From Verrucomicrobiota bacterium (GTDB lineage Bacteria > Verrucomicrobiota > Verrucomicrobiia > Opitutales > Opitutaceae), in contig JACRQG010000025.1 in NCBI GenBank assembly GCA_016222805.1, positions 1-64,000 of the forward strand: DNA of 64,000 nucleotides. The letters run 5' to 3'. How positions within the stretch are numbered: position 1 is the first letter of the stretch; each line of letters starts with the position of its first letter. Position numbers and translations under genes: made by a program. Positions 41,082 through 58,671 of this stretch are shown here, in pieces. The notes beneath the pieces were generated by a model. It was not told where the DNA came from, ran no database searches, and saw only the letters and a list, made by a program, of their open reading frames with translations.

Positions 41082-42311
41082 TCACGGAACCGTCGAAACG
41101 GGATTCAGCGTCGGATCCTGCTTCCGCTCGGCGCCGGGGCGGCTGAGGGTGAAGAAGAACTCCGCCCCCTGGCCGGCGGTGCTCTCGACCCGCACGTCTC
41201 CGCCGTGGGCCTGGACGACGTTCTTCACGATTGCCAGCCCCAGGCCGGTGCCGCCCTGCTCGCGCGAGCGCGCCTTGTCGACCCGATAGAACCGCTCGAA
41301 CACCCGCGCCAGCGCCTCGGGCGGAATGCCCGCGCCGTTGTCGCGCACCGACATCTCCACCAGGGAGCTGCCCATCGCCCGGCCGCGCACGGACACCAGC
41401 CCGCCCTCGCGGCCATACTTGATCGCGTTGTCGATCAGGTTGGCCAGCACCTGGCGCAGGCGATCCGGATCCGCCAGCGCCCGCAGGTCCCCCGGCACTT
41501 CGTTGACCAGCGTCACCGCGCGCGCCTGCGCAATCAAGGCCGCGTCGTCGAGTGCTTCCTGGGCCGCGTCCCGCATCATGACCGGCCGGAGGTTGAGTTC
41601 CACCCGCCCGGAATCGAGTCGGGCCAACAGCAACAGATCGTCCAGCAGCAGCGTCAGCCGGTTGGCATTCTTGTCGATGATCTCGAGGAAGCGCGACGTC
41701 ACCGCCGGGTCATGCCGGCCCCCGTCGAGCAGGGTTTCGGCGGCGCTCTTCACCAACGAAAGCGGCGTGCGCAATTCGTGGCTGACATTGGCCACGAACT
41801 CCTGGCGCACGGCCTCGAGGCGGCGCAACGCCGTCAAATCGTGAAACACCAGAATGGCGCCATCCGGGGTCCCGCCGGCCCCGCGCAGGGCGAGGGCGTT
41901 CACCTCGAAGTACCGCGTCTCGGTCACTCCATCGATGCGCAATTCGTGGTTGAGCACCTCGGGCTCGCGGGTAAGCCGCGTCACGATCGCCGCGACCTCA
42001 TGGTGCCGGGTCGCCTCCAGCACCGTGCGCCCCTGGGCCGGCGGCGTGAATTGGAACAAGGTCCCGGCCGCGCGGTTGGCGAGCCGGATCCGGCCGGCCG
42101 CATCGACCACCAGGATTCCCTCGACCATCCGATCAAACAGGGCGGCGGTTCGCTCGGACTGGGCGTGGAGTTCCACTTCGCGCTGCGCCCGTTGTTCCGC
42201 CAGTTCGCCCGCCAGCCGGTTGCGCTCCGTCCGCGCCCGGCGCAGCCGCCAGGCGGCCCAGGCCGCGAGGGCCACCAGGGCCAAGCCGAGCAGGAATTCG
42301 AGCAGGCTCAT
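41082..42311 (-). CDS. phoR: phosphate-regulon sensor kinase PhoR
   Basis: A 409-residue kinase with one N-terminal membrane helix (5-22), a charged segment, a PAS domain (about 60-170), HisKA with FVANVSHELRTPLS and a HATPase domain ([27 protein letters not shown]). This is the PhoR layout, in which PAS senses the state of Pst through PhoU. It is the last gene of the second phosphate operon and overlaps phoB by 4 bp. Confidence 0.94.
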   Translation of the reverse strand: MSLLEFLLGLALVALAAWAAWRLRRARTERNRLAGELAEQRAQREVELHAQSERTAALFDRMVEGILVVDAAGRIRLANRAAGTLFQFTPPAQGRTVLEATRHHEVAAIVTRLTREPEVLNHELRIDGVTETRYFEVNALALRGAGGTPDGAILVFHDLTALRRLEAVRQEFVANVSHELRTPLSLVKSAAETLLDGGRHDPAVTSRFLEIIDKNANRLTLLLDDLLLLARLDSGRVELNLRPVMMRDAAQEALDDAALIAQARAVTLVNEVPGDLRALADPDRLRQVLANLIDNAIKYGREGGLVSVRGRAMGSSLVEMSVRDNGAGIPPEALARVFERFYRVDKARSREQGGTGLGLAIVKNVVQAHGGDVRVESTAGQGAEFFFTLSRPGAERKQDPTLNPVSTVP

Positions 42312-42994
42312 TCGTCCGCGGCAAAGCGGTAGCCGACCCCGCGAATCGTCTCCAGATAATCCGCCGCCGGCCCAATCTTCTCCCGCAGCCGGCGCATGTG
42401 GGTGTCCACCGTCCGGCTGTCGATCGGATTCTCGTAGCCCCAGACATCCTGCAGCAGGCGCTCCCGCGTCTGCACCCGGCCGCGCCGGCGGGCGAGCACC
42501 TCCAGCAGGCGGAATTCGGTGGCCGTGAGTTCGACCGGCGCGCCCGCCACCTTCACCCGGTGATGCGGCACATCGATGTCCAGTACGCCGAACCGGAGCT
42601 GCGCCACGGCTTCCTCCGCGGTCTTGGCCCGCGCCAGGAGCTTGCGGATGCGCAGCACGAGCTCCCGCGGGCTAAAAGGCTTGGTCACGTAATCGTCTGC
42701 GCCGAGCTCCAGGCCGAGCACCCGGTCCATCTCCGCCGCCCGCGCCGTGAGCATGATAATCGGGATGCCGGCCGTGCCCGGATCCCGGCGGAGGATCTTA
42801 CACACCTCCAACCCGTCCACCTCCGGCAGCATCAGGTCGAGCAGGATCAACGCCGGACGCTCGTCCCGCGCCAGAGCCAGGGCCCGCGTACCATCCTTGG
42901 CCAGCAGCGGCGCGAACCCGGCCTCCTTCAGCTTGAAGGCCAGCACCTCCAGGGCATCGGGCTCGTCGTCAACGACCAGGATCTTCGGTTTCAT
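42308..42994 (-). CDS. phoB: phosphate-regulon response regulator PhoB
   Basis: A 228-residue OmpR-family regulator. The receiver has LVVDDEPDALE, acceptor Asp in LILLDLMLPEVDG and Lys in YVTKPFSPRE. The winged-helix output has ELTATEFRLLEVL and ENPIDSRTVDTHMRRLREKIG, as in PhoB. It should bind PHO boxes such as those proposed at 49534-49562 and 55832-55849. Its start overlaps the phoU end by 26 bp, and its end overlaps phoR by 4 bp. Confidence 0.95.
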   Translation of the reverse strand: MKPKILVVDDEPDALEVLAFKLKEAGFAPLLAKDGTRALALARDERPALILLDLMLPEVDGLEVCKILRRDPGTAGIPIIMLTARAAEMDRVLGLELGADDYVTKPFSPRELVLRIRKLLARAKTAEEAVAQLRFGVLDIDVPHHRVKVAGAPVELTATEFRLLEVLARRRGRVQTRERLLQDVWGYENPIDSRTVDTHMRRLREKIGPAADYLETIRGVGYRFAADE

Positions 42995-48212: not shown

Positions 48213-49511
48213 TCAGAACTGGATCTGCACCTGACTGCGCATGCCGACCGCCTTGGCCTCGGCGGGAGCGCCGGTGACGTTTTCCCTGGTCTTGCCGTAC
48301 ATGGCGCCGAGCTGCCACCGCAGGTCGATGCCCCGCAGGTACCAGTTCACGCCGGCATACCATTCCTCGAACTTGTTCATCGTGCCGCCGGAGGCCGCCG
48401 ATCGCATGACGTCGCCCATCTGCAGGCCGCGGCCGTTGGAATCGACGTAGCAATAACGGGCGACGGCCTCAATCGTCTCGGTCAGATAGTAAGAAGGCAT
48501 GAGGAAGTAGCCCTTCGGCCTGGCATCGCGGGTGGCCGACACCCCGCCTTCGACGTCCGCGGTCAGATATTCCGCCATGAAGGCGAACCTCCCGGCCTGA
48601 AGCTCGAAGAACGCCGAATAGAGGGTCAGATCGAAACCGCGGCCAAAATTCGTCGTGCCGAAGCCCCCTCGATCGGGCTGGAAGCCCGAGCCCACGCCAG
48701 CCGTCCAGAAGTTGTTCTCGGGAAGTTTCTGGTACAACGCGACGGTGCCCCAGAAGGCGGGTTTGTTGGAGGTGGAGTCGCCGGCCGCGGAGGCTTCCGT
48801 GAACGACTCACTGCGCTCCGGATCCGTGATCGCGGCGGTATAGAGGAAGTTCGTGGTCGAGTTGATCTCCTTCTTGCCGTCGAGAAAGGCGCCGATGCGG
48901 TAGCTGGCGGCCCCCAGCCTCCGGCCGTTGTTGCCCTCGACGAAATAGCGCGTGACCCCGGAGCGTTCGAGGGCCTTGAGGTTGCCGCTGGAGTAGCGCT
49001 CTTCATAGGCGACCGCCACCTTGCGCAGGCCGAAATTGAACTGCAGGTCGGGCGTGGGCTTCCAGTCGATGTACCCGTCGTCGTAGTAGCCGGAGGCGAA
49101 GTCGTAGGTGAACTGAGCTCCCCAGTGGCCGCCGACGCCGGCCTTGAGCGTAAAATACATCCGGCGCAGGAAGGCCTGGTCGACATAGGCCGGCTTGGCG
49201 GCGGTCCCTTTGATCTCGGTGTCGATGTGCGCGTATTGGATCTGCATCCGCATTCCGACCGAGAGGCGATCCGTGGCCTTGCCGCCGCCGAAGGCGTGGG
49301 CCGGCACCGTGTTGCTCTCGCGCACCAGTTCCGCCCGCAGTTCCTCGGCTTCCTGGTTGGTCAGGATGCCCTTCTTGATCAGGAGATCGACGAGCGGACC
49401 GCTTTCCTGGGCGTGAACCGAAACGGAGAGAAGGCCAAAACCGACGAGGCAAACCAGGGTGCGGAAATACTCCCGGGAAAAAACAGAAGAGCATCCAGCG
49501 AACGTCGCCAT
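48213..49511 (-). CDS. outer-membrane porin of the phosphate-selective O/P type
   Basis: A 432-residue protein. The signal peptide ends SVHAQ. A short helical stretch (LIKKGILTNQEAEELRAEL) typical of OprO/OprP-type porins follows, then amphipathic beta strands ending VQIQF. OprP-type porins form anion channels for phosphate or polyphosphate. Its place directly before pstS and behind a PHO-box-like array supports a phosphate role. AGGA precedes the ATG by about 9 bp. Specificity is inference. Confidence 0.85.
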   Translation of the reverse strand: MATFAGCSSVFSREYFRTLVCLVGFGLLSVSVHAQESGPLVDLLIKKGILTNQEAEELRAELVRESNTVPAHAFGGGKATDRLSVGMRMQIQYAHIDTEIKGTAAKPAYVDQAFLRRMYFTLKAGVGGHWGAQFTYDFASGYYDDGYIDWKPTPDLQFNFGLRKVAVAYEERYSSGNLKALERSGVTRYFVEGNNGRRLGAASYRIGAFLDGKKEINSTTNFLYTAAITDPERSESFTEASAAGDSTSNKPAFWGTVALYQKLPENNFWTAGVGSGFQPDRGGFGTTNFGRGFDLTLYSAFFELQAGRFAFMAEYLTADVEGGVSATRDARPKGYFLMPSYYLTETIEAVARYCYVDSNGRGLQMGDVMRSAASGGTMNKFEEWYAGVNWYLRGIDLRWQLGAMYGKTRENVTGAPAEAKAVGMRSQVQIQF

Positions 49512-49533: not shown

Positions 49534-49562
49534 GTTACAATCACATGACGGTTCGGTGACAA
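49534..49562 (-). promoter_or_regulatory. PHO-box-like array (three heptamers, 11-bp period) upstream of the porin
   Basis: On the minus strand three direct heptamers occur, TTGTCAC, CCGTCAT and TTGTAAC, each separated by 4 bp, giving an exact 11-bp period. This is the PhoB-binding layout (consensus half-site CTGTCAT). It points toward the porin-pst-phoUBR operon. The array ends only 22 bp before the porin ATG, which leaves very little room for a promoter and leader. Confidence 0.7.
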
Positions 49563-51695: not shown

Positions 51696-52511
51696 TCAGG
51701 CCTCCACCAAAGCCACCAGTCCCTCCCCCACTCCGGAGGAATCTTCCGCCGGCAGCGGGTACTGGCGGACAAAGTCGCTGAAGGCCACGACTTCCATCCG
51801 ACCGTCGAAATGTTCAACGATCGCGGTGAGGGATTCGACCCAATCGCCAGAGTTCAGATAGTGGATGCCATCGAGGCGCTTGTCCGCCGGCGTGTGAATG
51901 TGCCCGCAAATCACCCCGCTGCAGCCGCGCTTCACCGCCAGCGCGGCGAGATGGGATTCGAAGTTTGAAATGTGGTTCACCGCCGACTTGACGCGCGCCT
52001 TGATCGCCTTGCTCAGCGACCAGTATTCCTTGCCCCGCCAGGTCCGCCAGCAGTTGTAGGCACGGTTGATCCGCAGGAGCAGCCCGTACCCATAGTCGCC
52101 CAGATGGGAAAGCCAGACGAAGTTCCGGGTGACGGTGTCGAAGATGTCACCGTGCAGAACGAGGTACCGCCCCGCCGGGGATTCGTGCACGTAGTCCTCC
52201 CGGACCTGCAGCCCCTCGAACTCGAGCGGCAGAAAGGCCGCCAACACATCGTCATGGTTACCCCGCAGGTACACTACCTCCGTGTCGCGCTTCTCAAGCA
52301 TCTTCAGCACGAGGCGGACGAACCGCGTGTGGGCCTTGGTCCAGCTGCCCGAACGCCGGAGCTGCCAGCCGTCGATGATGTCGCCATTGAGAATCAGGGT
52401 CTCGCAGCGCACGTGCCGGAGAAAGTGATTCACCTCGGCAATCTTGCAGTCGCGGGTGCCCAGGTGGACATCCGAGAGGATGACGGTGCGGACGCGCAGC
52501 AGATTTTTCAT
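51696..52511 (-). CDS. plcP: PlcP-like metallophosphoesterase (predicted phospholipase C for lipid remodelling)
   Basis: A 271-residue calcineurin-like phosphoesterase with all metal-binding motifs: LSDVHLGTRD, NGDIIDGWQLRR, LRGNHDD, LHGDIFD and CGHIHTP, followed by NSGDWVES. The overall sequence matches PlcP, which in alpha-proteobacteria removes phospholipid head groups during phosphate starvation to release diacylglycerol. It is also similar to LpxH-type pyrophosphatases, the main alternative. Its place after two glycosyltransferases and a diacylglycerol-kinase-family gene, in a chain of 4-bp overlaps, favours PlcP. Confidence 0.8.
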   Translation of the reverse strand: MKNLLRVRTVILSDVHLGTRDCKIAEVNHFLRHVRCETLILNGDIIDGWQLRRSGSWTKAHTRFVRLVLKMLEKRDTEVVYLRGNHDDVLAAFLPLEFEGLQVREDYVHESPAGRYLVLHGDIFDTVTRNFVWLSHLGDYGYGLLLRINRAYNCWRTWRGKEYWSLSKAIKARVKSAVNHISNFESHLAALAVKRGCSGVICGHIHTPADKRLDGIHYLNSGDWVESLTAIVEHFDGRMEVVAFSDFVRQYPLPAEDSSGVGEGLVALVEA

Positions 52512-53452
52512 GGCAGTTGCAGGGCAAATCCCGCCGGCGCCCAGTCCGGGCTGGGAGTCGTCACCCGCGAGCGCGCGGGGACCCGGACGCGCAAGCTGCG
52601 CGGTTGCACCCGCACCTCGATCCGCGCCCCCGCCGCGTGGGTTTCGCCGTCGGTGTGCAGCAGGCCGGGGCCCACCCGCTCGATGATCAGCCGGTCACCG
52701 CGAAACCGGCGCACGCCGGGACTCCGGTGCAGATTGCCGGCGAACAACCGCACGGCGAGGGAGACCGCACCAACCAGCCCCACCGGCCGGATGGCCACGA
52801 GATCAAGCGCGCCGTCGTCCACCCGCGCTCCCGGAGCGATGCGAGCATGGTTGCCGTACTGGTCCGAGTTCGCCACCGCGACCAGCAGGACTTCGAGCTC
52901 CTCCGCTGCGGCCCCGTCGCTGATCACCACCCGTTCGGGGCGAAGCTCCCGGATGACTCCCAACACGGTACGGGCATAGACTGGCAGTCCGCGGTGCGTC
53001 AGGCGATTGAACCGGTCGCTGACCACGGCATCGAGCCCGATCCCCATGGCGTTGAAGAAAGGTTTTCCGTTGGCCTCCCCCGTGTCGATCGTGGTGACGC
53101 GGGCGGTCGGGGAGGCGGTCAGCGCGAGGGCCTGCGCCAGGGAAAGGGGCAGTCCCAGATGCAGGGCGAGTCCGTTGCCCGAACCGCACGGCACCAGACC
53201 GAGTTCCGCCGGCGTGTGCCGGAGCGCCTGGGCCACCTCGTTCATCGTGCCGTCGCCCCCCACCGCCACCACCTGGGTGCACCCGGCCGCAATCGCGGCG
53301 CGCGCCAAGGCAGTCGCGTGCCCCGGCCCTTCGGTAACCGCCAGCTCCGCCTCAAGCCCCTGCACCTGGATGAAGTTCCGGATCATCCCCGGCAGCCACG
53401 GGCGCAGCCGGTTGCGCCCTGACGACGGATTGAGAATGAAGCGCGTCTTCAT
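52508..53452 (-). CDS. diacylglycerol kinase family protein of the lipid-remodelling operon
   Basis: A 314-residue DagK/YegS-family protein: FILNPSSGRNR at the N-terminus, VVAVGGDGTMNEVAQ, VPCGSGNGLALHL and C-terminal HTDGETH. It would phosphorylate diacylglycerol or another lipid using ATP. In this operon it could return surplus diacylglycerol to phosphatidic acid, balancing PlcP (inference). The ATG at 53452 overlaps the GT28 stop by 4 bp, and its stop overlaps the plcP start by 4 bp. Confidence 0.88.
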   Translation of the reverse strand: MKTRFILNPSSGRNRLRPWLPGMIRNFIQVQGLEAELAVTEGPGHATALARAAIAAGCTQVVAVGGDGTMNEVAQALRHTPAELGLVPCGSGNGLALHLGLPLSLAQALALTASPTARVTTIDTGEANGKPFFNAMGIGLDAVVSDRFNRLTHRGLPVYARTVLGVIRELRPERVVISDGAAAEELEVLLVAVANSDQYGNHARIAPGARVDDGALDLVAIRPVGLVGAVSLAVRLFAGNLHRSPGVRRFRGDRLIIERVGPGLLHTDGETHAAGARIEVRVQPRSLRVRVPARSRVTTPSPDWAPAGFALQLP

Positions 53453-54579
53453 CGCCCGAGGGAAAGCGCGGGCCTCTCGCTGCGCTCGGCGATTCGCGCG
53501 ACGATCGCGGCGGCCGCACCCGGGCGCGACAGCGGCCGCAGATTGGCGCGCCAGTCGCTCCATCGCTTCCCGCCGTTGGCAAAGGCGTCGCGCAACGCCT
53601 CCAACACGCGGTCCGGTGTCGGGGCAAAAGCGCCCGCTTTATGGCGGCGGAGCAACTCGTAATTTCCCTCCTCCTGTCCCGGAACGATCTGATTCACGAC
53701 CAACGGACAGCGGGCGGCGATGGCTTCGTGGGTGGTGGCGCCTCCCGCCTTGCTCACCACCACGTGGTGAGTGAGCAGCAGCCGCGGAATCTCGGCCGTC
53801 CATCCCAGAATCCGAGCTGGCGCGACCCGTCCCGCGGACAGCCGCGCCAGCTCCCGCCGCAGCCGGTCATCCCGGCCCACGGCGCACGTCACCTCCCACG
53901 TGGTCTCGGCGAGCAAGCGGCGCGCCGTCTCGTGGGCGTGCGCGGTGCCGGAGTTGACGATGTACAGCACCCTCGGCGTTGCCCCGGTGGCGAGGTCCGG
54001 CGGCACCAGCCGCTCTCCGTGCGCCGCGAAGAACGCGTCAACCGGAAAACCGCACACTTCGATCCGCTCCGCCTCGACCCCCGCCCGGCGAAGCACCTCG
54101 GCCGAATCCTCCTCCGCCATGAACCAGCCGCTGGCGCCAGCCCGCCACCACAAGGCATTGAGACTGATGGAATCCGTGACGACGTTGTAGAACGGAACCT
54201 TCGCAAGCGTGGCCGGGCCCCGCCACCAAAGGAAGGCGTACAGCGGATAGGTGGAACAAATCACATCGGGGCGCACTTCCGCGGCCAGTCTCGCCAGCCG
54301 GCGGGTCACCGGGTGGAACAGGCGCCAAAGCTGACTCGAAGGCGAAAGGCGGTCGGCCCAGCCATAGAAGGCGTTCCAAAGCCGGGGGGCGCGGTTGATC
54401 AGGGTCAGGTAGGCTGCCCGGCCCACCGCCGTTCTCCGGGGCGCGGTTAGCGCAAAGGCATCAACCACCCTGGCGCTGCCCGGACCGTGCACGTCGGTTA
54501 GGGCCGCAGCCAACGCCCGGGCGGCGGCGTTGTGCCCCTCCCCAAAGCCTGCGGTCAGAACGAGGGTGCGGAGACTCAC
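53449..54579 (-). CDS. MGDG-synthase-like glycosyltransferase (GT28)
   Basis: A 376-residue protein. The N-terminal domain begins LVLTAGFGEGHNAAARALA, as in monogalactosyldiacylglycerol synthases. The C-terminal GT28 domain has VVSKAGGATTHEAIA and VVNQIVPGQEEGNYELL, the sugar-nucleotide and acceptor loops of the family. Such enzymes glycosylate diacylglycerol. The GTG start overlaps the GT4 stop (GTGA) and has AGGAGG upstream. The sugar donor (galactose, glucose or other) cannot be told. Confidence 0.87.
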   Translation of the reverse strand: MSLRTLVLTAGFGEGHNAAARALAAALTDVHGPGSARVVDAFALTAPRRTAVGRAAYLTLINRAPRLWNAFYGWADRLSPSSQLWRLFHPVTRRLARLAAEVRPDVICSTYPLYAFLWWRGPATLAKVPFYNVVTDSISLNALWWRAGASGWFMAEEDSAEVLRRAGVEAERIEVCGFPVDAFFAAHGERLVPPDLATGATPRVLYIVNSGTAHAHETARRLLAETTWEVTCAVGRDDRLRRELARLSAGRVAPARILGWTAEIPRLLLTHHVVVSKAGGATTHEAIAARCPLVVNQIVPGQEEGNYELLRRHKAGAFAPTPDRVLEALRDAFANGGKRWSDWRANLRPLSRPGAAAAIVARIAERSERPALSLGR

Positions 54580-55739
54580 GCGGGAACCTCCTGCGGCTCG
54601 CCACTTCCCTCCGCCGCGACCGCCTGCAATTCCGCCTCGAACTTCCCGATGACCCGATCCCACGACTGCAGCTCGACTGCGGCTCGGGCCGCCGCCCGGA
54701 GTTGCGTCCGCAGCATGCCGTCCGTGGCGAGCATCACGGCAAACTCGATCAAATCCTCCGGAGCATCGCAGGGCGCCACCAGACCGCTGCGACCATGGGT
54801 GACGAACTGCCGCGCGGCGGCATAGTCGAATCCGACCACCGCCAGGCCACTGGCCAGCGCCTCGGTCAGAACATTGCCAAAGGTCTCGGTCAGGCTGGCA
54901 TGGACGTAAAGGTCGGCCGAGGCGTAGTGCCGGCCGATTTCCTCGCGGGAAAAGACCCCTTCGAAGATGCACTCGGGATGAGACCGGCTGAGCGCAGGCT
55001 TCAGGGGGCCTTCGCCCGCGAGCACAAAGCGGCAGCGCGGGTTGGCGGCGCGCATCGCGGCATAGGCCCGAAAGAGCAGCGGGTAGTTCTTCTCCGCCGC
55101 CATGCGTCCGACGTGAATCACCACGGGATCGTCCGGAGCCGCGCCCCACTGCTGCCGAAGGGCCGGGCAGCGCCGGGCCGGATGAAACTGCCAGGTGTCC
55201 ACCCCGCGCGAGAGGACGGCGAGATCCCGGAAACCCGTCGCCGCCAGTTCGGCGCACAGCTCCTCGGTGGGGGCGAACGTCCGCCGGGTCCGGTTGTGCA
55301 CCCGGCGCAGCCAGGCCAGGACCAGTCCGTGCAGGAGACCCGAACGATAATGGGAGGTGTAGGCGTGGAAATTGGTGTGAAAGCTCGAGGTCACCGGAAT
55401 CCCCAGCTGTCGGGCCGCGGTGATGGCGCTGGCGCCGAGCGGCCCCTCGGTGGCCACGTGCACGAGATCGGGTGGATCTCCGCGCCAACGGCGCCGGAGC
55501 CGGCCGACCGCCGGCAGGCCGAGCCGGAGCAGCGGATAGCCGGGAATGGGCAGGCCCGGCAGGGGACATTCGACGTATTCGGACGGCCGGGCCGCTCCGC
55601 GCAGCAGATCGTCGCGCCGGGGACGGTAGACCGTTACCTCGTGTCCACGCCGACCGAGTTCGCGGGCGATGACGCCGAAGGTCATGGCCACCCCGTTGAT
55701 TTCCGGAGGAAAGGTCTCGGTGACGAGGGCGAGTTTCAC
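54576..55739 (-). CDS. GT4 glycosyltransferase, first gene of the lipid-remodelling operon
   Basis: A 387-residue GT-B glycosyltransferase. It has the N-terminal LVTETFPPEINGVAM and the family-4 EX7E motif within ETFGNVLTEALASG. It resembles the lipid-glycosylating GT4 enzymes (Agt/SqdX/mannosyl-lipid type). It starts with GTG at 55739, preceded by a CU-rich tract. A PHO-box-like site lies 92 bp upstream. With the GT28 protein it could make a mono- or diglycosyl lipid (inference). Confidence 0.88.
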   Translation of the reverse strand: MKLALVTETFPPEINGVAMTFGVIARELGRRGHEVTVYRPRRDDLLRGAARPSEYVECPLPGLPIPGYPLLRLGLPAVGRLRRRWRGDPPDLVHVATEGPLGASAITAARQLGIPVTSSFHTNFHAYTSHYRSGLLHGLVLAWLRRVHNRTRRTFAPTEELCAELAATGFRDLAVLSRGVDTWQFHPARRCPALRQQWGAAPDDPVVIHVGRMAAEKNYPLLFRAYAAMRAANPRCRFVLAGEGPLKPALSRSHPECIFEGVFSREEIGRHYASADLYVHASLTETFGNVLTEALASGLAVVGFDYAAARQFVTHGRSGLVAPCDAPEDLIEFAVMLATDGMLRTQLRAAARAAVELQSWDRVIGKFEAELQAVAAEGSGEPQEVPA

Positions 55740-55831
55740 GCGGGAGGAAGCGACAGGACGGGATGAGCCGTTCTCTGTATCCGCCTCTTTATGACGCCTC
55801 GATATGGCGGACCCGTGGCGCCGCGGTTACT

Positions 55832-55849
55832 ATTACGTCACAATGACAG
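55832..55849 (-). promoter_or_regulatory. PHO-box-like site upstream of the lipid-remodelling operon
   Basis: On the minus strand a perfect consensus heptamer CTGTCAT (55843-55849) is followed after 4 bp by the weaker ACGTAAT (55832-55838), the 18-bp PHO-box layout. A further CCGTAAC lies just upstream at 55852-55858, but off the 11-bp period. It points toward the GT4 gene and could also affect the divergent hydrolase/GH3 pair. Confidence 0.6.
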
Positions 55850-55939
55850 GTGTTACGGCCGCATGGCGGCGACGTGATATTCGGGTGGCGACGGCCGTTT
55901 CGCTTTGCCGGGCGGACGGCGGGCCGCGCTCCTCGGTTC

Positions 55940-57049
55940 ATGCCCGGATTCACCCTCGCTCCTGCCCTGCATCTCTATGCCGCGTTTCAACGCGTCTCCG
56001 CCCTCCGGCCGCTGCAGCGCCTGGTGCGCACGAGCGAGGAAAAGCGCCGGCCCCGCCGGATCGAAGCCCATGCCGGGGGCGGCGAGGCGCAGGATCGGCT
56101 GCTCGGCGCCGGGGGAGCGGGCCTGCATCAGCGGGCCCGGATCATGAGGGAAGACGGCTGCGGACTTGTCCCGACGATTGTACTCGGGGGATTTGTCCCG
56201 GACGCCACGGAGCAGGTGTTCCTCCTGCGCCGAATGCTGCGCCGATCAGGCGACATCTACTACGTCAACTACTCCCGCACCGGATTTTCGCTGGATCTGG
56301 TCCTGGCTCAACTGGCCGATCTCGTTGCCGAGCTCGCCGCCCGCGGGCAGCCGCCGGTCCTCCTCGGGGTGAGTTTCGGAGCGGGACTGGTGCTGGAGTT
56401 TCTTCGGCGGCAGCGGCTCGCCGGAGCCGCTGCCCCGCTTTCCGGCGTCATTCTGGTGAGCCCGGCCGGCTGCGTGGCCGATGTGATGGCAGCGGGGCGG
56501 GCCAAGCCCGACACCCTGCTCGGCCGCGCCGTCCAACCCTACCTCGGCGCGGAGCCACCGGCGGCCTCCGCAATCGAGCGGTCGCGCACGATTTTCGCCC
56601 GGATGTTCGAAGCCGGCGCCCAGAACAAGGCGGCGTTGAAGGTGCTCATGTCGCCGACGGAATTGGAGCAACTGCGGAGCGCGGTGCTCGCGGCGATTCG
56701 GGAGGTCAGCCCGACCGGTGCCTGGGAAAGGGTCGCGGCGTTTCGAGCCATGCCGGAGCCGACTGCCTACTTCTCCCCTGCCATCCTGCCCCTGACGGAA
56801 GCCCCCGCTCTGGTCCTGTTCGCCGAGCAGGAAGACGGCGTGCTGGTGGCCGGGGCGCCGACTCGATTCGCGCTCGAAACCGGCCTTCGCGCCTATTTCC
56901 CGACGGGACGTCTCGGCCGGGTCTCCGCCTTGCCCGGACAGCCTCCCGTCCAACACGCTTCGCTGATTTTCCACGTGTTCGAGTTTTTGCCGCCGCTCCA
57001 GACCTTTTTTGGTCGGTTGCGGGCAGCCCGGTTGCGTCGCGCCGCGTGA
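55940..57049 (+). CDS. alpha/beta-hydrolase fold protein
   Basis: A 369-residue protein with an alpha/beta-hydrolase core. TIVLGGFVPDATEQ looks like the oxyanion strand, and LLGVSFGAGLVLEF is the nucleophile elbow with Ser in GVSFG. Near the C-terminus, FAEQEDGVL and QHASLIFHV are candidate regions for the acid and His. The first ~90 residues are basic and lack homology that I recognise. The substrate is unknown. The stop overlaps the start of the GH3 gene (GTGA), so the two products probably work on the same substrate or pathway. Confidence 0.75.
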   Translation: MPGFTLAPALHLYAAFQRVSALRPLQRLVRTSEEKRRPRRIEAHAGGGEAQDRLLGAGGAGLHQRARIMREDGCGLVPTIVLGGFVPDATEQVFLLRRMLRRSGDIYYVNYSRTGFSLDLVLAQLADLVAELAARGQPPVLLGVSFGAGLVLEFLRRQRLAGAAAPLSGVILVSPAGCVADVMAAGRAKPDTLLGRAVQPYLGAEPPAASAIERSRTIFARMFEAGAQNKAALKVLMSPTELEQLRSAVLAAIREVSPTGAWERVAAFRAMPEPTAYFSPAILPLTEAPALVLFAEQEDGVLVAGAPTRFALETGLRAYFPTGRLGRVSALPGQPPVQHASLIFHVFEFLPPLQTFFGRLRAARLRRAA

Positions 57050-58671
57050 AGCCCTGCCACCGAACGCCCGGGCTCCGGCGGGGCCTGGCCCTGGTCGGCG
57101 GACAGTGGCTGGCCGCCCACGCGCGCCGGGTCCTCGGCGAGCCGTCGGCCGCGGTGCGCGAGCAGGAGAGCACACGCGCCAGCCTGGTCTCCCGACTGGC
57201 CGGCACCGCCTACGGCCGGTTCCATGGGCTGGAACAGGGCCTCTCCGCCGGCGCCTTCCGCACCCGGATGCCCGTGACCGACTACGAAACGCTCGAGCCG
57301 TGGATCGAACGGATGAAAGCCGGGGAGGCCGGCGTGCTTTGGCCCGGTGTCTGCCGGCATTTCGCCGTGTCCTCGGGCACCACGGCCGGCCGGACCAAGT
57401 ACCTGCCGGTCACCAGCGCGATGCTCGATCATTTTCGACACACCGGCCTGATCTCCCTCGGCCTCTACGCCAACCGCGCCGGCCACGCGCGCGTCTTTCA
57501 GGGACGGCACCTCTTCCTGGGCGGCTCGACTACCCTCGTCCGCCTGCCGACACCGGCAGGACCCGGCGCGTGGTGTGGCGATCTCAGCGGTATCACCGCA
57601 CTCAATCTGCCCGCCTGGGTGGAGCATCTGCTCTACGAACCGGGGAAGGAGATTGCCCAGCTCGCCGAGTGGCCGGCGAAACTGGAGGCGATCGTAGACC
57701 GAACTGTCTCTCGCGACATCACCCTCGTGGCTGGGATTCCGAGCTGGCTGCTGGTCCTCGCCGAAGTGCTGCGTCGCCGGACCGGCGGCGCTCCGGCGCC
57801 GGTTTGCTGGCCCAACCTGGAGTGCCTCATACATGGCGGTGTGCCGGTAGGGCCGTTCGCGGCCGAACTTTGGGAGGCCTACGGACCGCAGGTCCGATTC
57901 CACGAGGTCTTTCCCGCGTCGGAGGCTTTCATTGCGGCTCAGGAGGCGGAGCCGGAGGCCGGCCTTCGGCTGCTGACCGGCGCCGGCGTGTACTACGAGT
58001 TCCTGCCTCTCCGAGCGTTTGCTCCCGGTCGGCTCGCAGAACTCGGGGGCCAGGCGCTTCCGCTGGACGCCGTCCAGCCAGGCGTTGACTACGTCCTGCT
58101 GCTCACCACCCCCGCCGGACTCTGTCGCTACGTGATCGGCGATGTGGTGCGGTTCATTTCCACGCGCCCCCCACGCCTCCTCTACGTCGGCCGGACCCGA
58201 CTCCAACTGAGCGCCTTTGGCGAACATGTGATTGAAAAGGAACTGACCGACACGTTGAGCGAAGTCGGCGCGCGGCACCGCCTGGCGGTCGCGAACTTCC
58301 ATGTCGCGCCCCTCTTTGTGGACGCCGCCGCGGGGGCGAACCGTGGACGGCATGAATGGTGGCTTGAGTTCAGGCCTGCCTCCTCACCCGGAACCGAGGC
58401 CGATCTGGCGGGCGAACTCGATCGGGCACTCCAGCAGCGCAACGACGATTACGAGGCCAAACGCCGGGGCGGCGGTCTGGACGCACCACGCGTACGCGTG
58501 GTGCCACCGGGTACATTCGAGGGCTGGCTTCGCCAACACGGCAAGTGGGGCGGACAGCACAAGATGCCCCGCTGCCGCAGCGATCGCGCGATCGCTGATG
58601 AACTCGCCGCGCTCGTCGCGCCGTTGTGTGACGGACCGGTGAATTCGCGGGACGAAGCCACGATGGGTTGA
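57046..58671 (+). CDS. GH3-family acyl-adenylating / amido-synthetase-like enzyme
   Basis: A 541-residue protein with the GH3 family pattern: SSGTTAGRTKYLP (ATP-binding), PNLECLIHGGVPVGPF, EVFPASEAFIAAQE, YYEFLPLRAF, CRYVIGDVVRF and, near the end, HGKWGGQHKMPR. GH3 enzymes adenylate a carboxylic acid and usually transfer it to an amine such as an amino acid. In bacteria the products are largely unknown. The GTG start overlaps the hydrolase stop by 4 bp. A strong terminator follows at 58737-58775. Confidence 0.9.
   Translation: MKPCHRTPGLRRGLALVGGQWLAAHARRVLGEPSAAVREQESTRASLVSRLAGTAYGRFHGLEQGLSAGAFRTRMPVTDYETLEPWIERMKAGEAGVLWPGVCRHFAVSSGTTAGRTKYLPVTSAMLDHFRHTGLISLGLYANRAGHARVFQGRHLFLGGSTTLVRLPTPAGPGAWCGDLSGITALNLPAWVEHLLYEPGKEIAQLAEWPAKLEAIVDRTVSRDITLVAGIPSWLLVLAEVLRRRTGGAPAPVCWPNLECLIHGGVPVGPFAAELWEAYGPQVRFHEVFPASEAFIAAQEAEPEAGLRLLTGAGVYYEFLPLRAFAPGRLAELGGQALPLDAVQPGVDYVLLLTTPAGLCRYVIGDVVRFISTRPPRLLYVGRTRLQLSAFGEHVIEKELTDTLSEVGARHRLAVANFHVAPLFVDAAAGANRGRHEWWLEFRPASSPGTEADLAGELDRALQQRNDDYEAKRRGGGLDAPRVRVVPPGTFEGWLRQHGKWGGQHKMPRCRSDRAIADELAALVAPLCDGPVNSRDEATMG

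Follow-up and report, generated by a model that had tools for sequence, protein, structure and literature searches.

Does a bacterium of the Opitutaceae carry a dedicated machinery for exchanging membrane phospholipids for glycolipids when phosphate runs short? The question is raised by positions 51696-55849 of contig JACRQG010000025.1 from a Verrucomicrobiota bacterium (assembly GCA_016222805.1), of which we analysed the stretch from 1 to 64,000 (hereafter the window; the genome containing it comprises 7.9 Mb in 51 contigs). Four minus-strand genes, running from 55739 to 51696, form one operon and encode, in this order, a GT4 glycosyltransferase, a GT28 glycosyltransferase, a lipid kinase and a PlcP-like phosphoesterase, and at all three junctions the end of one gene and the beginning of the following one have 4 bp in common. 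A sequence-only reading had described these overlaps and protein families, together with a PHO-box-like site and the proximity of two Pst operons and phoBR, and had proposed that the operon replaces phospholipids by glycolipids under phosphate control. The overlaps can be confirmed directly in the DNA, the four families are matched by Pfam domains, and the neighbourhood is as claimed. We consider it highly probable that the operon serves PhoB-controlled remodelling of phospholipids into glycolipids, as an enlarged PlcP-Agt pathway in which PlcP would be accompanied by two diacylglycerol glycosyltransferases and a recycling kinase. Phosphate-controlled glycolipid replacement is well supported by PlcP and Agt relatives, a promoter repeat, linkage to pst genes, and proteins in which GT4 and PlcP are fused.

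The enzymes encoded by the operon

The last gene (51696-52511, minus strand) encodes a calcineurin-type phosphoesterase of 271 residues with a Metallophos domain (Pfam). Two identities have to be weighed for it, namely PlcP, a phospholipase C of membrane phospholipids, and LpxH of lipid A synthesis, which would turn the operon into an envelope housekeeping unit. Over 240 residues it shares 44% identity with a protein of Sinorhizobium meliloti, and over 242 residues 47% with one of Pseudomonas aeruginosa; judged from gene context, these two are presumably the characterised PlcPs of their species. Its identity to Escherichia coli LpxH is 21%. The S. meliloti gene (L118; L and G number loci and genomes) lies near genes for an acyl-homoserine-lactone synthase and a LuxR-type regulator, which we take to be the place of PlcP. 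The P. aeruginosa gene (L119), on plasmid pPALO11, directly precedes a glycosyltransferase gene and cyaB, an arrangement that presumably resembles the chromosomal one. Judged from gene order, the PlcP and GT4 of the plasmid look like copies of PlcP and Agt1 (PMC8528852).

In favour of LpxH, it is the nearest solved fold (5k8k, TM 0.53, 17% identity) to the predicted structure of the phosphoesterase (mean pLDDT 82), a comparison that leaves PlcP versus LpxH undecided. A phmmer search of PlcP against the PDB gave no match at E 0.001. Public annotation also points to LpxH: among 32 matching records of a plasmid collection, 20 of the 25 listed rows are named UDP-2,3-diacylglucosamine diphosphatase, the other five being without a listed gene. 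However, the phosphoesterase reaches 35.6 bits with the LpxH model (cut-off 134), and this match below the cut-off is its sole one in the genome, where LpxI is encoded elsewhere (140.9 bits, cut-off 25). The motifs DxH, GD, GNHD, HGD and GHIH are invariant among 21 aligned sequences, and the phosphoesterase reads GNHD where E. coli LpxH reads GNRD. It was, furthermore, detected in just 36 of 57 genomes at E 1e-20, the host genome counted. A tree of 36 proteins places it with Opitutaceae forms (seven rows, 98/96), the placement of LpxH being unsure because of its very long branch. Among its closest named relatives are a protein of Geminisphaera colitermitum TAV2, at 77% identity, and several others recorded as Opitutaceae, which makes it very probable that the host belongs to this family. 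Action as LpxH had been named as a result that would overturn the sequence-only reading, but the evidence points the other way: given the PlcP-like identities, the Agt-like GT4 partner and the LpxI gene, such a role is extremely unlikely. We rejected it on the low identity, the model scores and the presence of LpxI, and regard the protein as a likely PlcP.

The first gene (54576-55739, minus strand; 387 residues) carries the Pfam domains Glyco_transf_4 and Glycos_transf_1 and encodes a likely diacylglycerol glycosyltransferase of the Agt type. It is 32% identical over its full length to the PlcP-linked GT4 of P. aeruginosa, and 31-35% identical in a multiple alignment to seven proteobacterial PlcP-linked GT4s, that of P. 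aeruginosa among them. Since the Agt group shares less than 25% identity with other GT4 enzymes (PMC8231724), these values fit membership in the Agt group. The protein would provide the Agt-type partner of the PlcP-Agt pathway, with a putative Agt activity.

The second gene (53449-54579, minus strand; 376 residues, GTG start) encodes a GT28 glycosyltransferase of the monogalactosyldiacylglycerol (MGDG) synthase/UgtP type and is the sole PF06925 member in the genome. Its MGDG_synth domain scores 68.9 bits (Pfam cut-off 25), and its PDB matches are plant MGD1 (4wyi, E 2.7e-23) and a processive diacylglycerol beta-glucosyltransferase (9wde, E 2.2e-19), with which it aligns in the N-terminal G-x-G-H and C-terminal GQExxN motifs. 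It thus shares family and donor-site motifs with Bacillus subtilis UgtP and plant MGD1; similarity to them is moderate, however, and its sugar donor and anomer are putative. We do not name it a diglucosyldiacylglycerol synthase, because it scores 134 bits with the equivalog PRK13609, for which the cut-off is 500. A transferase encoded beside a Parabacteroides PlcP was considered as a relative of GT28 and rejected, as it is unlike GT28 and proved to be a Glyco_trans_1_3 protein.

The third gene (52508-53452, minus strand; 314 residues) encodes a lipid kinase with the Pfam domains DAGK_cat and YegS_C. With 126.7 bits in TIGR00147 (cut-off 118.65) it falls into the YegS/BmrU subfamily, and its PDB matches are BmrU, DgkB and YegS. 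In an alignment of ten sequences GGDGT is present in all ten and DGE in nine. Two further PF00781 members are encoded in the genome, one of them in the window at 11.6-12.0 kb. The protein is likely a diacylglycerol kinase, and a step from diacylglycerol to phosphatidate is plausible, with diacylglycerol as the predicted substrate.

Promoter repeat and linkage to pst genes

The string CTGTCAT-4 bp-ACGTAAT, on which the proposal of a PHO box had been founded, is indeed present at 55849-55832, and in that layout. When a first matrix, modelled on the E. coli PHO box, was applied to the window, the three best scores fell on this site and on two overlapping pairs at 49562-49534. By pattern counts and matrix score (see below), however, the site alone is at chance level, and we rejected it as stand-alone evidence; it is better read as part of a triple repeat shifted by 6 bp. 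In relatives, many pst and porin promoters carry 7-bp repeats with 11 bp spacing, often three in a row. A lineage matrix was made from 45 half-sites of 17 out of 20 pst loci (L109, L115 and L116 were left out), and no plcP promoter was used. The training sites were hand-picked from the ranking by the E. coli-box matrix, and for L101, L103, L105 and L110 the copy near the porin gene was taken, not simply the top score.

We call a site significant if its score is equalled by no more than 5% of the other 200-bp stretches of its locus. By this measure the lineage matrix finds a significant pair 58 to 122 bp ahead of the nominal start in 21 of the 22 family operons that were scored, the tested operons coming partly from the same genomes as the training sites. 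Outside the family, 4 of 7 loci have a significant box; six of 35 loci were unscored because the first gene is not GT4 or a contig end cuts the locus. In the window it prefers the triple repeat TTGTGAC-GTAA-TAGTAAC-CGCG-GCGCCAC at 55843-55815 (minus strand, 76-104 bp before the GT4 start), which overlaps 55832-55849 and stands 6 bp off the CTGTCAT-4-ACGTAAT register. TTGTAAC-N4-GCGCCAC is found in several relatives, which argues that this shifted register is the conserved one. For comparison, the triple repeat TTGTCAC-CGAA-CCGTCAT-GTGA-TTGTAAC lies at 49534-49562 (minus strand) before an OprO/P-type porin gene and the pst operon. A degenerate 29-bp pattern, allowing up to two mismatches, has three sites in the genome, namely the two window repeats (0 mismatches) and one other (2 mismatches); the pattern was fitted to both window repeats, so that its two perfect matches are not independent evidence. 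A PHO box upstream, as in the PlcP-Agt pathway, is thus present as a candidate to which PhoB would bind.

Linkage with phosphate uptake genes points in the same direction. Of 24 genomes with both PlcP and a PstS, 11 encode the two at most 32 kb apart on a single contig and in the same orientation (counted by eye; in two of the 11, G004 and G043, PstS is a distant copy, and many assemblies are fragmented). These data bear on the alternative that the operon makes glycolipids constitutively, for instance as membrane or envelope anchors, and not in response to phosphate. Gram-positive UgtP-type GT28 enzymes do make anchors constitutively, and three of the seven loci from other families are without a significant box. 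Yet the box in 21 of 22 family operons, found with a matrix trained on pst promoters, the pst linkage and the presence of PlcP as a partner all speak for a phosphate response and render constitutive synthesis improbable.

Conservation, fusions and neighbouring genes

For a comparison among relatives, 34 of the 35 other PlcP regions were used (G020, split across two contigs, was left out). The order GT4-GT28-DAGK-PlcP, in which DAGK stands for the kinase, is found in 16 of them, all from the same genus, and the 4-bp overlaps recur there at 16 GT4/GT28, 15 GT28/DAGK and 14 DAGK/PlcP junctions. The other arrangements are GT4-PlcP (seven loci), GT4-GT28-PlcP (three), GT4-DAGK-PlcP (two), and one each of PlcP-GT28, DAGK-PlcP and GT28-DAGK-PlcP, the last at a contig end, while in three loci PlcP is without these partners. 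For a second sample we took the 80 top-ranking named loci from a single scan, in which the same genomes partly recur. Thirteen of these make up the Opitutaceae-type set (eight four-gene loci, one three-gene locus that is cut, two GT4-GT28-PlcP and two GT4-PlcP-GT28), and in none of the other 67 were the four genes found together within the stretch examined, which is short in some. PlcP with GT28 and without GT4 occurs in L064 as well as in L154, L186, L199 and L202. Some members of the family thus lack GT28 or the kinase, and elsewhere GT4-PlcP is what remains. GT4-PlcP looks like the common core, to which GT28 and the kinase appear to have been added in Opitutaceae.

Two loci deviate in their reading frames. 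In the draft genome of L038 (2830-4908, minus strand), which accounts for the single GT28/DAGK junction lacking the 4-bp overlap, GT28 and kinase share one stop-free frame; this may be a fusion or a sequencing error. The PlcP of G019 (L067, 6366-7028) has an internal stop and matches in two frames, with no kinase gene found beside it, as would result from decay or an assembly error.

The tie between GT4 and PlcP is strengthened by the fact that the two are fused in one protein elsewhere in Verrucomicrobiota. A survey of 387 genomes from across the phylum revealed such fusions in at least 27, which all belong to one family, each fusion being a single frame of about 630-660 residues that is stop-free in every case; in two fusions checked with Pfam both domains are present. 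Five of the 80 named loci, that of Rubritalea marina included, also carry the fusion (all fusion loci, L136, L137, L142, L143, L150 and L203-L229, belong to Verrucomicrobiota other than Opitutaceae). The promoter repeat ranks within the top 5% of the locus before 13 of the 27 fusion genes, and before the rest it is weaker, with few comparison stretches available. Apparent fusions in G046 and G055 were rejected, given that three (L057) and seven (L059) stops separate GT4 and PlcP. No PlcP-glycosyltransferase fusion was found in the accessible parts of the literature searched.

Gene neighbourhoods also bear on the kinase, whose substrate might not be diacylglycerol but a glycolipid, phosphatidylglycerol or a sphingoid base, in which case a recycling loop would not exist. 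Its second motif reads GSGNGLA, as opposed to GTCND in the aligned Bacillus-type enzyme, and the gene is missing from the GT4-GT28-PlcP loci L048, L051 and L067. The kinase family, moreover, has a broad substrate range, with YegS and the sphingosine kinases as examples. On the other side, the best matches among solved structures carry the names diacylglycerol kinase and BmrU, and kinases recur beside plcP in Bacteroidota (L148, L157, L169) and alpha-proteobacteria (L200, L201). These five cases among the 67 named loci outside the Opitutaceae-type set compare with about 0.3 expected from a rough random placement, for which each locus was set at 12 kb and the density of kinase genes at that of the host genome (three in 7.9 Mb). 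L148 and L169 show the order PlcP-glycosyltransferase-kinase, with a transferase of a different family. The recurrence supports a tie between PlcP and the lipid kinase, not a particular kinase substrate. A diacylglycerol kinase is also listed among PHO-dependent remodelling proteins (PMC5082522). Taken together, a different substrate strikes us as unlikely, if clearly worth keeping in mind, and diacylglycerol is preferred.

In Ideonella alba (L193, 9243-11375), a GT4 located about 2.4 kb from PlcP scores 502 bits with a Verrucomicrobiota profile, as compared to 181-239 bits for other proteobacterial GT4s; gene transfer is possible in this case.

As to the surroundings of the operon, genes of the pstS, permease (two), ATPase, PhoU, PhoB and PhoR types follow each other at 48.2-41.1 kb on the minus strand, with the PhoB-type response regulator and PhoR-type histidine kinase at 41082-42994, and a second pst set lies on the plus strand at 34.7-39.3 kb. 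The OprO/P-type porin gene that precedes pstS occupies 48213-49511 (minus strand; start set by eye; the longer frame 48213-49559 matches Porin_O_P at E 4e-12). A phosphofructokinase gene is located about 100 bp downstream of the operon. Divergent from it, and sharing its intergenic region, is a plus-strand pair (55850-58671) of an alpha/beta hydrolase gene (frame 55850-57049, the true start probably further in) and a GH3-family gene (about 57154-58671). This pair may share the same phosphate or lipid response; in L039, L043, L044 and L050 it stands directly downstream of PlcP.

A model for phospholipid replacement and its precedents

In the model we favour, phosphate shortage would lead PhoB to switch the operon on, and PlcP would cleave membrane phospholipids into diacylglycerol and a phospho-alcohol, the phosphate of which could be salvaged. 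GT4 and GT28 would then add sugars to diacylglycerol, so that phosphate-free glycolipids keep the membrane filled. The PlcP and glycosylation steps are proposed because of homology to characterised enzymes. Most likely the two transferases act in parallel on diacylglycerol, since other lineages combine PlcP with just GT4 or just GT28, and they would perhaps yield two lipids, alpha-linked by GT4 and beta-linked by GT28; alternatively, they may together make a mono- and a diglycosyl lipid. The kinase would most likely return unglycosylated diacylglycerol to phosphatidate, either as a brake or for re-synthesis once phosphate returns, a step that we infer with the help of PMC5082522.

Several observations weigh against this model. 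It is odd that phosphate should be spent on diacylglycerol during starvation. Neither transferase reaches an NCBIfam equivalog cut-off: the top model for GT4 is N-acetylglucosaminyl-phosphatidylglycerol synthase (139.3 bits, cut-off 480), followed by alpha-monoglucosyl-diacylglycerol synthase (94.7 bits, cut-off 400), and, given the best model, the acceptor of GT4 may be a phospholipid. Its two PDB matches, 6n1x and 6d9t, are named glycosyltransferases only, not lipid enzymes. With up to three mismatches, an E. coli-type box has 3 sites in the window where 6.4 are expected, and CTGTCAT-4-ACGTAAT has one where 1.0 is expected; the site at 55849-55832 scores 12.8 with the E. coli-box matrix, below the 13.2 that marks the 95% point of window maxima in 60 random sequences. 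With the lineage matrix, a significant box was not found in the family locus L035, nor in L062, L063 and L065 outside the family. Lastly, no PlcP match at E 1e-20 was found in 7 of 26 genomes of the same genus, several of which are incomplete.

The single elements of the operon have precedents. For plcP, six arrangements that involve Agt and other glycosyltransferases have been described, along with PHO boxes and a verrucomicrobial PlcP (PMC4796936). In methanotrophs, plcP-agt is known and another diacylglycerol glycosyltransferase lies near plcP in some type Ia strains, whereas the verrucomicrobial methanotrophs have no PlcP according to the same source (PMC9239053). Hence the pathway put forward by the sequence-only reading as alpha-proteobacterial is indeed known, but it is not limited to that group. 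The operon resembles the PlcP-Agt pathway (PMC4796936, PMC9239053, PMC8231724) in that PlcP adjoins an Agt-type GT4 and a PHO box is present; it differs in that GT4 is upstream of PlcP, that GT28 and a lipid kinase are part of the operon, and that the host belongs to the Opitutaceae.

Two transferases and a kinase had been presented as an addition to the known pathway. They do stand in one operon here, but the combinations are not without parallel. P. aeruginosa has one PlcP, two diacylglycerol glycosyltransferases (Agt1 and Agt2) and PHO boxes, though the two are both Agt homologues and sit at separate loci (PMC8528852), unlike GT4, GT28 and kinase in a single operon. In Pseudomonas BIRD-1, PlcP and DagK are listed together as PHO-dependent lipid-remodelling proteins (PMC5082522), though the accessible passages do not place the two in one operon. 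The plcP types 3 and 5 (PMC4796936) and the type Ia methanotrophs (PMC9239053) share with our operon a PlcP next to a non-Agt diacylglycerol glycosyltransferase, but a set of GT4, GT28 and kinase is not described in the accessible parts of these papers. Likewise, a four-gene operon of this kind was not found in the literature searched, as far as PMC4796936, PMC8528852 and PMC9239053 were accessible. Other bacteria are thus known to carry out the basic PlcP-based swap, whereas its enlargement to four genes represents a new arrangement.

With regard to the phylum as a whole, we tentatively suggest, while thinking it somewhat less probable than its opposite, that Verrucomicrobiota evolved tightly coupled PlcP-glycosyltransferase machines. 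One family would have a bifunctional protein that hands diacylglycerol over directly. In the Opitutaceae, four enzymes would be encoded in an operon under PhoB control; its two unrelated transferases would produce two glycolipids, and its dedicated kinase would govern how much diacylglycerol goes to glycolipid and how much to phosphatidate. The GT4-PlcP fusion is a natural lipase-transferase in which direct hand-over of diacylglycerol can be tested. The naming of many PlcP proteins as LpxH in public annotation suggests that the pathway may be hidden elsewhere. If our reading of the operon is true, a family that has received little study would join those with phosphate-driven membrane remodelling, and the operon would show how the parts of this remodelling are gained and lost as modules.

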